Virus record (IMG/VR): IMGVR_UViG_3300007708_000018
Span: 1-29,795 of that record
Source of the DNA: a virus
Length of the DNA: 29,795 bases
Reading direction: 5' to 3' (one strand)
Shown here: positions 16,514-20,126 of the stretch, piece by piece
Layout of the letters: every line of letters starts with the position of its first letter
Numbering within the stretch: the first letter of the stretch is position 1
Translations under genes and position numbers: made by a program
Notes under the pieces: model-generated
Told to the model about the DNA's origin: nothing
Databases searched by the model: none
The model's input: only the letters and a program-made list of their open reading frames with translations

Positions 16514-16593
16514 ACCGATTTCTGGGGAAACGCAATAATGTTTCGTAATTAGCAATAAAGTTGCGTCGCTCGGGCTTCGCAAAAATCTTGCGT

Positions 16594-16638
16594 GGGGAGA
16601 GAGATTATTTGCTAGTTTTCTAGGCTCACTCTCTCCCC
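16594..16638 (-). terminator. Hairpin with conserved loop, copy A
   Basis: A 10-bp stem GGGGAGAGAG / CTCTCTCCCC (16594-16603, 16629-16638) encloses a loop containing ATTATTTGCTA...CTAGGCTCA. It lies just after the 16646-16873 gene. The loop is shared with 17585-17626 while the stem sequence differs. Confidence 0.7.
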
Positions 16639-16645
16639 TTGCCGA

Positions 16646-16873
16646 TTACATCACATAACGCTTGTGAATTGCCAATTCGTCAGAGGCGATAAGCGTTGTC
16701 CAACCAGACGATTTTTCATCAACAGAAACTGCGTAGGCGACATACGGTTCACCTTTGGCAATTCCGTTCTTGGCTCGTGCTTCAGCACCGACAGAGATTG
16801 GCACAATCTCATTGACCTTGCCAATAACCTGGCTGTCGTGAGTTTTGATTGTGTATCCGATTAGTTCGTTCAT
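16646..16873 (-). CDS. Small beta-barrel-like protein of unknown function (75 aa)
   Basis: MNELIGYTIKTHDSQVIGKV, then NEIVPISVGAEARAKNG, EPYVAYAVSVDE and a basic end HKRYVM. Short strands and turns suggest a PRC-barrel or SH3-like domain. AAAGGAAA precedes the ATG. Single-gene unit between module copy 13 and hairpin copy A. Not recognised. Confidence 0.6.
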   Translation of the reverse strand: MNELIGYTIKTHDSQVIGKVNEIVPISVGAEARAKNGIAKGEPYVAYAVSVDEKSSGWTTLIASDELAIHKRYVM

Positions 16874-16900
16874 TTTTTTCCTTTTCTTTGTTATATTCCA

Positions 16901-16929
16901 ATTATATCAGCGACCACCGACATATAACT
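16901..16929 (-). promoter_or_regulatory. 29-bp promoter module, copy 13
   Basis: AGTTATATGTC, spacer GGTGGTCGCTGA, -10 TATAAT (plus 16901-16906). The upstream gene's TAG stop (16928-16930) overlaps the start of the motif. Feeds the 75-aa gene. Confidence 0.85.
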
Positions 16930-17092
16930 AGTTGGCGTATACGTCCAACAGGCTCTGCCAGACAGCAATTCGACCAGTAGCAAAGTATGCCATTTGGATA
17001 TTGCCTCGTGCCTGATAGTCTGCCAAGTCAATTTCCTCGTCAGCGATAAAGCGAGCAATCATTTCGGTTGAGATTATGATTTCTGATTTCAT
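16928..17092 (-). CDS. Small helical protein of unknown function (54 aa)
   Basis: MKSEIIISTEMIARFIADEE then IDLADYQARGNIQMAYFATG and RIAVWQSLLD. Two or three helices. The ATG at 17092 has GAAAGGC before it. Its stop is formed by the next promoter module. Not recognised. Confidence 0.6.
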   Translation of the reverse strand: MKSEIIISTEMIARFIADEEIDLADYQARGNIQMAYFATGRIAVWQSLLDVYAN

Positions 17093-17116
17093 TAGTTTGC
17101 CTTTCGTTATATCTTT

Positions 17117-17145
17117 ATTATACAGGCGAGCACCGACACGAAACC
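17117..17145 (-). promoter_or_regulatory. 29-bp promoter module, copy 14
   Basis: GGTTTCGTGTC, spacer GGTGCTCGCCTG, -10 TATAAT (plus 17117-17122). Feeds the 54-aa gene. Confidence 0.8.
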
Positions 17146-17233
17146 CCTGAAATTCAGGGAAACGCAATAATGTTTCATAAAGACGCAAAGATCTTGTGCC
17201 GCCCGAGCCAGGTATGTTAGGACAAACCTCTCC

Positions 17234-17467
17234 CTAGAACCAATCAGCCTCAGTTGTGCTAACGCCAACAAAACGAGCATTGTTGTGACAAAAAAGGCAA
17301 CGCTCAGTTCTGTCACCAGCAAACTGAAAAAGGACAGTCGCCTCAAAGCCACAATTCTGGCAAGGGCGAACGGCAGAAAAAGGACCAGAGTCCTCTTGGT
17401 CACAGCCACAGAAGGCAAATTGCTCTGAGCAGAAGGGGCAGAAATAGGATTCATCGAATGTGTTCAT
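17234..17467 (-). CDS. Multi-zinc-ribbon protein (77 aa)
   Basis: Four cysteine pairs: C10-x2-C13, C20-x-C22, C36-x2-C39 and C57-x2-C60, enough for two zinc ribbons. Such proteins commonly bind nucleic acid or act as protein adaptors; no specific function can be assigned. TATAAT (plus 17474-17479) ends 6 nt before the ATG at 17467, so it is probably leaderless; an ATG two codons upstream would cut into the expected start of transcription. Confidence 0.65.
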   Translation of the reverse strand: MNTFDESYFCPFCSEQFAFCGCDQEDSGPFSAVRPCQNCGFEATVLFQFAGDRTERCLFCHNNARFVGVSTTEADWF

Positions 17468-17473
17468 ATACAC

Positions 17474-17502
17474 ATTATAACAACGAGCACGGACATATAA
17501 CT
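17474..17502 (-). promoter_or_regulatory. 29-bp promoter module, copy 15
   Basis: AGTTATATGTC, spacer CGTGCTCGTTGT, -10 TATAAT. Feeds the leaderless zinc-ribbon gene at 17467. Confidence 0.8.
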
Positions 17503-17571
17503 CCAGGAATTCGGGAAAAAAGATCTTAATTACGTAAAGAATTTCCTAGATCTAAAATGCCCGAGCCAGCC

Positions 17572-17580
17572 TGTGGATAA
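17572..17580 (-). promoter_or_regulatory. DnaA-box match TTATCCACA
   Basis: Perfect match on the minus strand beside GCCCGAGCC (17559) and directly before hairpin copy B. Confidence 0.55.
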
Positions 17581-17584
17581 CTTT

Positions 17585-17626
17585 GGGGATAGGTTTATTT
17601 GCTATTTCTAGGCTCACCCTATCCCC
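17585..17626 (-). terminator. Hairpin with conserved loop, copy B
   Basis: A 9-bp stem GGGGATAGG / CCTATCCCC (17585-17593, 17618-17626) encloses TTTATTTGCTA...CTAGGCTCA. Lies just after the 17634-17777 gene. Loop matches copy A; stem differs. Confidence 0.7.
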
Positions 17627-17633
17627 TGCCAAA

Positions 17634-17777
17634 TTATGAGGGGTAGATATCCTCGCTAGGCAAGACAGCAATCGTGTCAGTACCGTCAATCATTATGTGT
17701 GTGAATTTATCACTTTCGAATACGATTTCTCCTGTGAGAAAGTCATTTCCGTCATATGGAATATACATTGCGTTCAT
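17634..17777 (-). CDS. Small beta-rich protein of unknown function (47 aa)
   Basis: MNAMYIPYDGNDFLTGEIVF then ESDKFTHIMIDGTDTIAVLP and SEDIYPS. Short strands suggest a small barrel. AAAGGACA precedes the ATG. Single gene between module copy 16 and hairpin copy B. Not recognised. Confidence 0.6.
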   Translation of the reverse strand: MNAMYIPYDGNDFLTGEIVFESDKFTHIMIDGTDTIAVLPSEDIYPS

Positions 17778-17806
17778 TTGTTTGTCCTTTGCTTGTTGAT
17801 GTTATC

Positions 17807-17835
17807 AGTATACCGTGTACCACCGACACGAAACT
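17807..17835 (-). promoter_or_regulatory. 29-bp promoter module, copy 16
   Basis: AGTTTCGTGTC, spacer GGTGGTACACGG, -10 TATACT (plus 17807-17812). The upstream gene's TAG stop (17834-17836) overlaps the motif. Feeds the 47-aa gene. Confidence 0.85.
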
Positions 17836-17962
17836 ATCCTGTGATTGAGATAATTTCGAATTCAGCACGGAATTTGGCAAGGTCACGCCAATGAACGGCA
17901 GAGTAAACCTCACGTCCATTCTCGATATATTGAACCAAGTAGTAGTTGTCTTTTTCAGCCAT
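17834..17962 (-). CDS. Tiny protein of unknown function (42 aa)
   Basis: MAEKDNYYLVQYIENGREVY then SAVHWRDLAKFRAEFEI. Strand-turn-strand-helix. AAAAGGACA before the ATG at 17962; earlier in-frame starts lie within the promoter or intergenic repeats. Not recognised. Confidence 0.6.
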   Translation of the reverse strand: MAEKDNYYLVQYIENGREVYSAVHWRDLAKFRAEFEIISITG

Positions 17963-17992
17963 GTTATTGTCCTTTTCTTTGTTGATATAATC

Positions 17993-18021
17993 AGTATACA
18001 GCCGACCACGGACATGAAACC
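17993..18021 (-). promoter_or_regulatory. 29-bp promoter module, copy 17
   Basis: GGTTTCATGTC, spacer CGTGGTCGGCTG, -10 TATACT (plus 17993-17998). Feeds the 42-aa gene. TTCGTAA at 18060 upstream. Confidence 0.85.
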
Positions 18022-18083
18022 CCAAAAATCTAGGAAAATCCAGGGAAATATCGTAACACTTCGTAACAAAGTTACTAACAGCC

Positions 18084-18136
18084 TGTGGATAAGTGCTCGG
18101 GCTTCCTGTGGATAACTTTTTTGGGGGTGTGGATAA
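18084..18136 (-). promoter_or_regulatory. Cluster of three DnaA-box matches
   Basis: Three perfect TTATCCACA on the minus strand at 18084-18092, 18107-18115 and 18128-18136, with GCTCGGGC between the first two. This is the densest group in the window. Confidence 0.6.
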
Positions 18137-18147
18137 CTTGATCCGCC

Positions 18148-18243
18148 TTACTGTTCCAAATAACACGATAGACAAATCTCATAGGCAATAAATCCTAGAG
18201 TGTCCTCGTCAATTTTTCTTCCACAGTCATTACACTTAGTCAC
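18148..18243 (-). CDS. Tiny zinc-ribbon protein (31 aa, GTG start)
   Basis: C4-x2-C7 and C24-x2-C27 (MTKCNDCGRKID... YEICLSCYLEQ) form a minimal zinc ribbon. The GTG start lies 3 nt after the stop of the upstream gene, implying coupling. Followed by the DnaA-box cluster. Function unknown. Confidence 0.5.
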   Translation of the reverse strand: MTKCNDCGRKIDEDTLGFIAYEICLSCYLEQ

Positions 18244-18246
18244 AGT

Positions 18247-18426
18247 CTATCGCTTCATCAGTTGGCGAGTGAGCGTGAGTGCTTCCTCGAAATCGTGATT
18301 TGTGAATACGCTACCCTGTGCCAATTTGACGAGAGCGTTTAGGCGTAGTGCCTTTTGCTTAGGCGTGAGAGCGTTGATGTTGATGTCCTCAACTTCGTTG
18401 ATGTCAATGTCAATTTCGATTTCCAT
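18247..18426 (-). CDS. Small helical protein of unknown function (59 aa)
   Basis: MEIEIDIDINEVEDININAL, an Ile/Asp alternating strand, then helices (KQKALRLNALVKLAQGSVFT, FEEALTLTRQLMKR). AAAGGAAAC precedes the ATG. Read from module copy 18 with the following zinc ribbon. Not recognised. Confidence 0.6.
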   Translation of the reverse strand: MEIEIDIDINEVEDININALTPKQKALRLNALVKLAQGSVFTNHDFEEALTLTRQLMKR

Positions 18427-18452
18427 TTTGTTTCCTTTGCTTGATTACTTAC

Positions 18453-18481
18453 AGTATGTCACAGACCACGGACACGGAACT
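18453..18481 (-). promoter_or_regulatory. 29-bp promoter module, copy 18
   Basis: AGTTCCGTGTC, spacer CGTGGTCTGTGA, -10 CATACT (plus 18453-18458). The upstream gene's TAG stop (18480-18482) overlaps the motif. Feeds 18426-18148. Confidence 0.8.
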
Positions 18482-18656
18482 ACATTCCGAGAGTCTGGCG
18501 AGCAACCAGAGTGATTTCCTCATCTGTGTATTCTGACTGAGTAGCCAAGAGAGCATTGTAGTTTTGAGTATCACGATAGACTGCGTTTCCGTAGTCAGAG
18601 AATACTGCTGTGATTGCTGAAATCTTAGCCTGTACTAATTCTTGTTTGATGTTCAT
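18480..18656 (-). CDS. Small helical protein of unknown function (58 aa)
   Basis: MNIKQELVQAKISAITAVFS then DYGNAVYRDTQNYNALLATQ and a C-terminal helix. AAGGAAATGA lies before the ATG. The transcript from module copy 19 would have a leader of about 125 nt carrying three TTATTTGCT-type repeats, which is unusually long for this block. Not recognised. Confidence 0.6.
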   Translation of the reverse strand: MNIKQELVQAKISAITAVFSDYGNAVYRDTQNYNALLATQSEYTDEEITLVARQTLGM

Positions 18657-18684
18657 TTCATTTCCTTATCCGAAACATTTAGAC

Positions 18685-18741
18685 TTATTTGCTCTGACAC
18701 TTATTTGCTAGGCTCACCTTGCGGATTATTTGCTAGGCTCA
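18685..18741 (-). repeat. Three copies of the TTATTTGCTAGGCTCA motif
   Basis: TTATTTGCT (18685-18693, partial), TTATTTGCTAGGCTCA (18701-18716 and 18726-18741, identical). The same sequence forms the loop of the hairpins at 16594 and 17585. Here it lies in the leader of the 18480-18656 gene, and I see no clear enclosing stem. Confidence 0.65.
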
Positions 18742-18789
18742 TTATCTGAGGCTCACTCTTTATGTTTCTCTGTTTATCTTTATATCTTC

Positions 18790-18818
18790 ATTATAATCGA
18801 GACCACGGACATATAACT
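18790..18818 (-). promoter_or_regulatory. 29-bp promoter module, copy 19
   Basis: AGTTATATGTC, spacer CGTGGTCTCGAT, -10 TATAAT (plus 18790-18795). Feeds 18656-18480 through a repeat-bearing leader. Two CTATATRTAGTA elements (18885 and, inverted, 18914) and a DnaA box (18934) lie upstream. Confidence 0.8.
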
Positions 18819-18933
18819 ACTCAGATAGGGCAATATATGGCTAATGTTACGTTTTGTTACCATTCCGTTATAATTCTGGGGAATCTATATATAGTACGTA
18901 AATGTTATTATGATACTACATATAGCCCGAGCC

Positions 18934-18942
18934 TGTGGATAA
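18934..18942 (-). promoter_or_regulatory. DnaA-box match TTATCCACA
   Basis: Perfect match on the minus strand, beside GCCCGAGCC (18925). Confidence 0.55.
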
Positions 18943-19175: not shown

Positions 19176-19304
19176 AGGGAATTTTGGGGAAAAGCAATAA
19201 TGTTGCGTAAAAGGATAAACAACGCAATAAAAAAGCCCGAGCCCTGTGCATAACTCTGTGGATAGTTGTTCATCTATTGTTTACCCAAATAGTCACGGTA
19301 TTGG
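19176..19304. other. Divergent control region between the leftward and rightward blocks
   Basis: No gene. Contains a GCGTAA variant of the TTCGTAA motif (19205), GCCCGAGCC (19235), a DnaA-box match TTATGCACA on the minus strand (19245-19253) and a near match (19257). Lies between module copies 20 (leftward) and 21 (rightward). Confidence 0.6.
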
Positions 19305-19790: not shown

Positions 19791-19874
19791 ATGAAAAACG
19801 CAATTGCTCAATCTATGCTCATCGTCATCACTATGGCAGGAGTATTTGGACTAGTCGCTATCTTTATTTATTAG
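19791..19874 (+). CDS. Membrane micropeptide (27 aa)
   Basis: MKNAIAQSMLIVITMAGVFG then LVAIFIY: one membrane helix with a short basic start. AAAGGACA sits 4 nt before the ATG, as for other genes in the system. The stop codon lies inside the first 18-bp repeat. Confidence 0.5.
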   Translation: MKNAIAQSMLIVITMAGVFGLVAIFIY

Positions 19875-19968
19875 GTGGCACTAGTCCTAGTTATTAGGTG
19901 GCACTAGTCACCACTTATTAGGTGGCACTAGTCGATAGCATTATTCCTATTTATTAGGTGGCACTAGT
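19868..19968. repeat. Four perfect 18-bp direct repeats
   Basis: TTATTAGGTGGCACTAGT at 19868, 19891, 19915 and 19951 (gaps of 5, 6 and 18 nt). Each ends in the palindrome ACTAGT. The first copy supplies the stop of the 27-aa peptide. No palindromic pairing of the whole unit is evident, so binding sites for a protein are more likely than a hairpin. Confidence 0.85.
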
Positions 19969-20126
19969 GTGCTCACTAATTTTTAGTGTTATTTTTTTCT
20001 AGATCATGTATCGTACACATAAACAAATTATTCAGATTTTGTACAAATTGAAAATATAAAAATTTTCAGATTTCTGTACGAAGGTAACACTCTATGCAAT
20101 CGCATTCAAGAATTTTTTCAGGGGTA
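19969..20126. other. AT-rich noncoding stretch with a second repeat pair
   Basis: No gene. Contains TTCAGATTTTGTAC (20031-20044) and TTCAGATTTCTGTAC (20065-20079), a spaced direct repeat ending in GTAC, and an AT-rich core between them. Could be an operator or an attachment-like site; unproven. Confidence 0.45.

Follow-up and report, generated by a model that had tools for sequence, protein, structure and literature searches.

What is the short sequence that recurs, with a constant loop and changing stems, along one region of an uncultured phage genome, and what might it do there? The DNA in question is IMG/VR virus record IMGVR_UViG_3300007708_000018, analysed over a stretch of 29,795 bp with 41% G+C (the window). 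An earlier note on this DNA had pointed to two hairpins, H1 (16594-16638) and H2 (17585-17626), whose differing stems enclose the same loop core, and to three further copies of this loop (18685, 18701, and 18726) in the leader of a small gene; all five are present, and matches to the motif pattern are more numerous in the window than in any of 100 shuffles. The functional strand is the minus strand, on which the motif reads UGAGCCUAG..CUAGCAAAUAA, because the local genes are on that strand and relatives carry the motif in the sense of the next gene. As detailed below, sequence comparison strongly supports reading this element as a genuinely folded, functional RNA, whose structure is near certain and which is found chiefly ahead of small phage genes, in their 5' leaders.

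On the minus strand, H1 consists of GGGGAGAGAG-UGAGCCUAG-AAAA-CUAGCAAAUAA-U-CUCUCUCCCC and H2 of GGGGAUAGG-GUGAGCCUA-GAAA-UAGCAAAUAAA-CCUAUCCCC. Both loops hold a small inner helix (CUAG/CUAG or CUA/UAG), and consequently the conserved part is not the hairpin loop that it was first taken for, but an asymmetric internal loop with a helix on either side. The RNA module thus has the layout outer stem, UGAG-C, inner helix, C-AAAUAA, outer stem: U-G-A is followed by G4, which is paired with C10, and by a bulged C5; then come the inner helix, usually starting CU/AG, and AAAUAA. The outer helix is free in sequence, the G-C pair and the bulged C adjoin the inner helix, and the junction between outer stem and UGA is often A.G, G.A, or one unpaired base. 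The copies in the window leader, previously described as having no clear stem, do in fact pair. The copies at 18726-18741 and 18701-18716 are joined by a central CUAG/CUAG helix to give two modules back to back, and the third pairs with 18747-18755 to form a module that encloses the other two.

The commonest arrangement has two-fold symmetry, with two opposed modules joined by a short central helix (for example, 18690-18752); this double element comprises an outer stem, P1, two conserved strands, and a hairpin, P2. Other arrangements are the single capped module (H1, H2, and L086), two modules in one direction (L024, L051, L110, L387, and L393), the three-module leader (the window, L030, L034, L042, L057, and L065), and tandem double elements (L029 and L040). 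An alternative reading of the conserved strands as upstream open reading frames, in which a junction A or G before UGAG would provide AUG or GUG, was rejected: the length of P2 is not divisible by three, C or U stands at some of the junctions, and covariation ties distant strands together. The module also has some likeness to a kink-turn, with a three-nucleotide AAA bulge and a possible A15.G2 pair beside helices closed by G-C. The key tandem G.A/A.G of a kink-turn, however, needs a G at position 1b; here this position is U14, so that the first pair would be U.A, and the module departs from the consensus.

Evidence for the fold comes from changes that preserve pairing. Across 80 distinct relatives, pair cells in which both sides have changed number 191, compared with 61 +/- 6 in shuffles, and the covariation score is 0.418, compared with 0.096 for shuffled alignments and no more than 0.129 for slid structures; the compensatory changes thus go beyond what column composition or a displaced structure produces. 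Compensated variation is seen in all five P1 pairs and in both of the P2 pairs that were counted, and the central pair G9-C6' is replaced by C-G or U-A with no broken case. When all of IMG/VR is considered, this 9-6' pair is altered on both sides in 90 stretches, whereas a change in strand 1 only or in strand 2 only is found in 0 and 0, respectively; the retrieved two-sided variants are CUAC/GUAG or CUAU/AUAG, every one complementary. Longer central helices are likewise fully complementary, with 5 bp in G002 and 9 bp in L389 and L390 (CUAUCAUAG/CUAUGAUAG). A scan for half-modules gave 179 matches and none in reversed sequence, with inner helices that vary among CUCU/AGAG, CUAA/UUAG, CUUU/AAAG, CGA/UCG, and more. 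Since this first scan had demanded an inner helix, a second was run that imposed none: of the matches with 7 bp or more in the outer stem, 29 of 29 nevertheless have an inner helix, together with the bulged C and the G-C pair. (Four seemingly broken pairs, CTAG/CTAC as in L029, are judged from their coordinates to be spurious, each linking two adjacent elements of a tandem.) The earlier proposal, a functional RNA whose loop stays constant while its stems vary, is therefore strongly supported, and the covarying examples in relatives, without which it would have fallen, exist. Furthermore, it is the loop and not the stems that holds the invariant letters, a pattern that a binding site would be expected to show.

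A covariance model (R1) built from 80 sequences, the relatives together with the window leader, also recovers H1 and H2, neither of which was used in building it (scores in Table 1). Thermodynamic folding gives a more mixed result. The minus strands of H1 and H2 fold with z = -4.0 and z = -2.3, respectively, and in 4 of the 4 relatives tried energy minimisation returns precisely the proposed fold. In the window leader, where P1 and P2 are short, nearest-neighbour folding yields -19.0 kcal/mol when free and -14.8 kcal/mol when the core is enforced, so the proposed fold is not preferred; for this copy the fold is taken from the comparison with relatives, since energy folding alone prefers another structure.

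The element is found in many phages. A loose-pattern search of viral contigs returned many leaders in which the 16-mer UGAGCCUAGCAAAUAA flanks a variable hairpin inside a variable outer stem, and the double pattern, matched exactly at its 32 fixed bases, is present in at least 120 IMG/VR stretches. Two scans of about 85,000 GTDB genomes with the element patterns returned 0 and 0, which speaks against an origin from host genomes. Neither the window DNA nor the consensus element (by blastn) has a match in INPHARED, and the covariance model did not find the element in the protein relatives tested, four Streptomyces phages and HMO-2011. Scans of the window, five relative loci, and two short stretches against Rfam 15, with E limits from 2 to 10, gave only tRNAs and chance-level scores far under gathering. 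Structured RNA motifs carried by environmental phages are known from manA, wcaG, and PhotoRC-II, which occur in marine phages and cyanophages with metabolic genes (PMC2864571); the element resembles these in being such a motif but has no Rfam match to any of them. No earlier description was found in the literature searched, whose coverage leaves out most subscription journals, so that a prior report is possible. As a cis-acting structured phage leader RNA the element is of a known kind; the class itself and its modular two-fold build appear to be new.

How is the element placed with respect to genes? A start codon and Shine-Dalgarno sequence lie within 150 nt downstream of 132 of the 151 double elements, the Shine-Dalgarno at a median of 29 nt but at a variable distance. 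The genes that follow encode proteins of about 34-75 aa from more than 30 unrelated families, with no known function among those scanned; thus the element is not the property of one gene. Upstream there is a promoter-like sequence and then an A-rich 5' tail, and 94 of 173 leaders have TAAATAA in the 50 nt before them, compared with 2.9% of other gene leaders. The element accordingly has the position predicted for a cis-acting leader, in sense orientation between a promoter-like sequence and a ribosome site. On a larger scale it marks a point of transcription divergence, with coding that is 66% on the opposite strand 6 kb upstream and 87% on the same strand 5.5 kb downstream. Single modules are also found within operons, where they follow the stop codon of one gene and precede the ribosome site of the next, without a promoter. 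H1 and H2 are exceptional in being right behind stop codons rather than in leaders: H1 lies 7 nt past that of the gene at 16646-16873, and H2 directly past that of a small minus-strand gene. H1 is kept in L069/G001 with altered stem and loop, and H2 at the same place in the relative L391. An identical sequence, ACGCAAGATTTTTGCG, which forms a small hairpin with a U-run, directly follows H1 both in the window (16578-16593, minus) and in L069/G001; it is either an unusual terminator or a separate site.

The promoter-like sequences of the window do not match the plain sigma-70 consensus. Here, a promoter-like unit consisting of GTTATATGTC or GTTTCGTGTC followed by CGTGGTC...TATAAT occurs nine times on the minus strand between 16286 and 19176, one per small gene, and two related plus-strand units, with TGTCTGACC or TGTCAGACC, lie near 19302 and 19496. 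Promoters upstream of the element in relatives (for example, L011, L008, and L099) carry an inverted repeat at the presumed -10 position, TAGTCT-TAC-AGACATA, with variants that have compensating letters; arms of at least 5 are present in 65 of 159 promoters, compared with about 19 when right halves are exchanged. This repeat could be a regulator site or a hairpin at the 5' end. A subgroup (L072, L088, L092, L127, and similar) has inverted repeats resembling GTGACCTAAATCAC and palindromes of the GACACGCCGTGT type just past the element, which are perhaps operators.

The best reading of these data, held with about as much belief as doubt, is that of a modular cis-acting leader RNA bound by a protein, probably a dimer, that controls translation or mRNA fate. 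A protein encoded by phage or host would recognise UGAG-C/C-AAAUAA on the mRNA; a dimer is suggested by the two-fold arrangement of the modules, and central helices of 4, 5, or 9 bp imply that fixed phasing is not required. Binding would switch or tune the genes beside the transcription divergence point, presumably through translation start or mRNA lifetime, and H1 and H2 would be additional 3'-side sites for the same protein. Phage translational operators such as the T4 gp32 and RegA mRNA sites provide a precedent, in that they are specific mRNA sites beside the ribosome site, mostly autoregulating one gene. By analogy, the element would be expected to be read by a protein. It differs from such operators in its unrelated downstream families and in that a contig usually has a single double element. 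The diversity of these families, one of which is membrane-like, argues against autoregulation by the protein encoded downstream.

Several observations weigh against a protein-bound leader. Most copies are too distant from the Shine-Dalgarno for simple blocking of the ribosome. Most genomes have one double element (this was so for most of the contigs of 49-112 kb that were searched), which is unusual for a regulon. The element is present in just 3 of 20 contigs that share the capsid protein, and a looser search for the loop (TGAGC..CAAATAA) in these contigs gave chance-level matches only; because the contigs are incomplete fragments and the element of the three positive ones lies at most about 8 kb from a contig end, this count does not give the true prevalence. 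Finally, the shared gene content of 12 contigs includes no RNA-binding protein common to all. The widely shared families, most of them without annotation, include none that is RNA-binding-like, and the one family in 12 of 12 (123 aa) is probably structural. The idea in the earlier note that a regulatory protein might link the hairpins and the leader is plausible, but those 12 contigs yield no universal candidate for it.

The main rival, which seems rather unlikely, is that the RNA serves in mRNA processing or protection: a ribonuclease of host or phage would cut the module, or the rod would shield the transcript from decay, so that the small downstream gene would have a stable mRNA, with H1 and H2 guarding 3' ends. 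Every placement of the element, in 5' leaders, in operon gaps, and just past stop codons, fits this idea, as do the variable distance to the Shine-Dalgarno and the A-rich single-stranded flanks with their enrichment of TAAATAA. The sixteen conserved loop letters, however, exceed what known stabilising 5' stems need, and a 5' tail of roughly 15-30 unpaired nt ahead of P1 is less than ideal for protecting the 5' end.

Antitermination is improbable. According to this explanation, the nascent leader, with or without the aid of a protein, would bind RNA polymerase and allow read-through of early-operon terminators, as HK022 put RNA does. The put RNA is bound by the beta' zinc-binding domain of RNA polymerase. 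Like the element, it is a noncoding phage RNA of about 70 nt that acts in cis from a leader close to early promoters (PMC9378689); the element similarly lies near the 5' end of transcripts leaving the divergence point, at about one per genome, and on both strands in G002 and G008. Yet put RNA consists of two stem-loops in a V (PMC9378689), and the element is one rod of stacked internal-loop modules. Moreover, its occurrence within operons and right behind stop codons argues against a pure antitermination element, and the next genes in the window have their own promoter-like repeats.

A riboswitch, in which the loop would bind a small molecule and the leader control the gene, seems similarly improbable. 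Conserved asymmetric loops in 5' leaders would suit such a role, and tandem modules are likewise found in cooperative riboswitches. No expression platform is visible, however, modules are found at 3' sides too, and the downstream genes, unrelated small proteins with no common pathway, argue against a classical riboswitch as they do against autoregulation.

Very improbable is an RNA of the replication origin, that is, a primer or R-loop transcript, with the element marking the origin and the leader RNA joining initiation. The DnaA-box-like word TTATCCACA has 189 copies within 2 kb of the element, compared with a mean of 6.9 and a maximum of 21 for 60 permuted words; the element lies where gene direction flips; and GC skew turns positive near it in G005, which carries an end repeat of 123 bp. 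In G003, however, the skew minimum and the element do not coincide, extra modules such as H1 and the operon copies are remote from the main element, a ribosome site and a gene lie behind the element in nearly all cases, and divergence points commonly host both origins and early promoters. The region around the element may be a replication origin or simply an early control region. Last, that these are ordinary terminator hairpins or chance repeats is hardly credible: H1 and H2 do lie past stop codons and have G+C-rich stems, but neither has a U-run within 0-2 nt of its minus-strand stem or was called in a terminator scan (which accepted loops up to 8), their loops show the same degree of conservation as those of the leaders, and both explanations are contradicted by the covariation and by hundreds of leader copies.

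Table 1. Positions of the elements and associated features in the window
Feature	Position	Strand	Evidence or remark
H1, single module, AAAA-loop cap	16594-16638	minus	10-bp stem; covariance model 26.3 bits
H2, single module, GAAA tetraloop cap	17585-17626	minus	9-bp stem; covariance model 29.1 bits
Folded 5' leader of gene 18480-18656	18674..18766	minus	structure traced, pairs checked; triple-module equivalents in relatives
Leader outer stems AACAU/AUGUU and AGA/UCU, enclosing three internal-loop modules	within 18674..18766	minus	
Double element	18690..18752	minus	covariance model R1 62.5 bits, E 1.1e-15; covariation in relatives
Double element P1 (GAUA/UGUC)	18743-18746 with 18696-18699	minus	
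Double element strand 1 UGAGCCUAGCAAAUAA	18726-18741	minus	
Double element P2 hairpin (CC-GCAA-GG)	18717-18725	minus	
Double element strand 2 UGAGCCUAGCAAAUAA	18701-18716	minus	
Third (outer) module, 5' strand UGAGCCUCA	18747-18755	minus	
Third (outer) module, 3' strand AGCAAAUAA, pairs with 18747-18755	18685-18693	minus	CUC(U)/(A)GAG outer module likewise in relatives
Promoter-like sequence of the leader	18790..18811: TATAAT 18790-18795, TGTCCGTGG 18803-18811	minus	repeat families D1-D3; same arrangement in relatives
Small gene downstream of the leader, 58 aa, no known family	18480..18656	minus	
DnaA-box-like sites TTATCCACA, perfect	starts 15624, 17572, 18084, 18107, 18128, 18934	minus	mostly intergenic; the last five span 17572..18942

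The cluster of TTATCCACA sites in the window is a candidate replication origin region. An 8-mer, GCTCGGGC/GCCCGAGC, is present at nine window positions in both orientations (for example, 16568, 17201, 17559, 18095, 18925, and 19235), and several of its sites adjoin DnaA boxes and hairpins. Across the divergence point, at 19868-19970 on the plus strand, TTATTAGGTGGCACTAGTC is directly repeated four times, the last copy ending in TG, and each copy contains the palindromic ACTAGT; the core of these repeats, GGTGGCACTAGT, is found twice in L069/G001 and is absent from the other relatives examined.

Protein matches to Streptomyces phages, together with the WhiB encoded by relatives, point to an actinobacterial host as the most likely: the window's phrog_1221 protein matches Streptomyces BE-type phages at 54%, and the ribonucleotide reductase of a relative does so at 65%. 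Isolated Planktophila phages carry whiB (PMC10202952), and given the low G+C it may be guessed that the hosts are freshwater Nanopelagicales. A wider proposal, put forward tentatively, is that UGAG-C/C-AAAUAA is a reusable RNA "plug-in" of low-GC actinophages, which would be placed in varying number and orientation on changing early genes and read by a conserved two-fold RNA-binding protein of host or phage; this would be a new class of RNA-protein control, possibly linked to the origin.

New RNA motifs with compensated changes across a scan of a whole collection are uncommon, and the RNA motifs of phages are poorly catalogued. The motif described here is carried by many uncultured phages of what are probably abundant lake actinobacteria. 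It is small and modular and offers a clear mutational test, so that its partner should be directly fishable. Such a binding partner would show how genes are controlled near the divergence or origin region of these phages, and it could give a new orthogonal RNA-protein pair.

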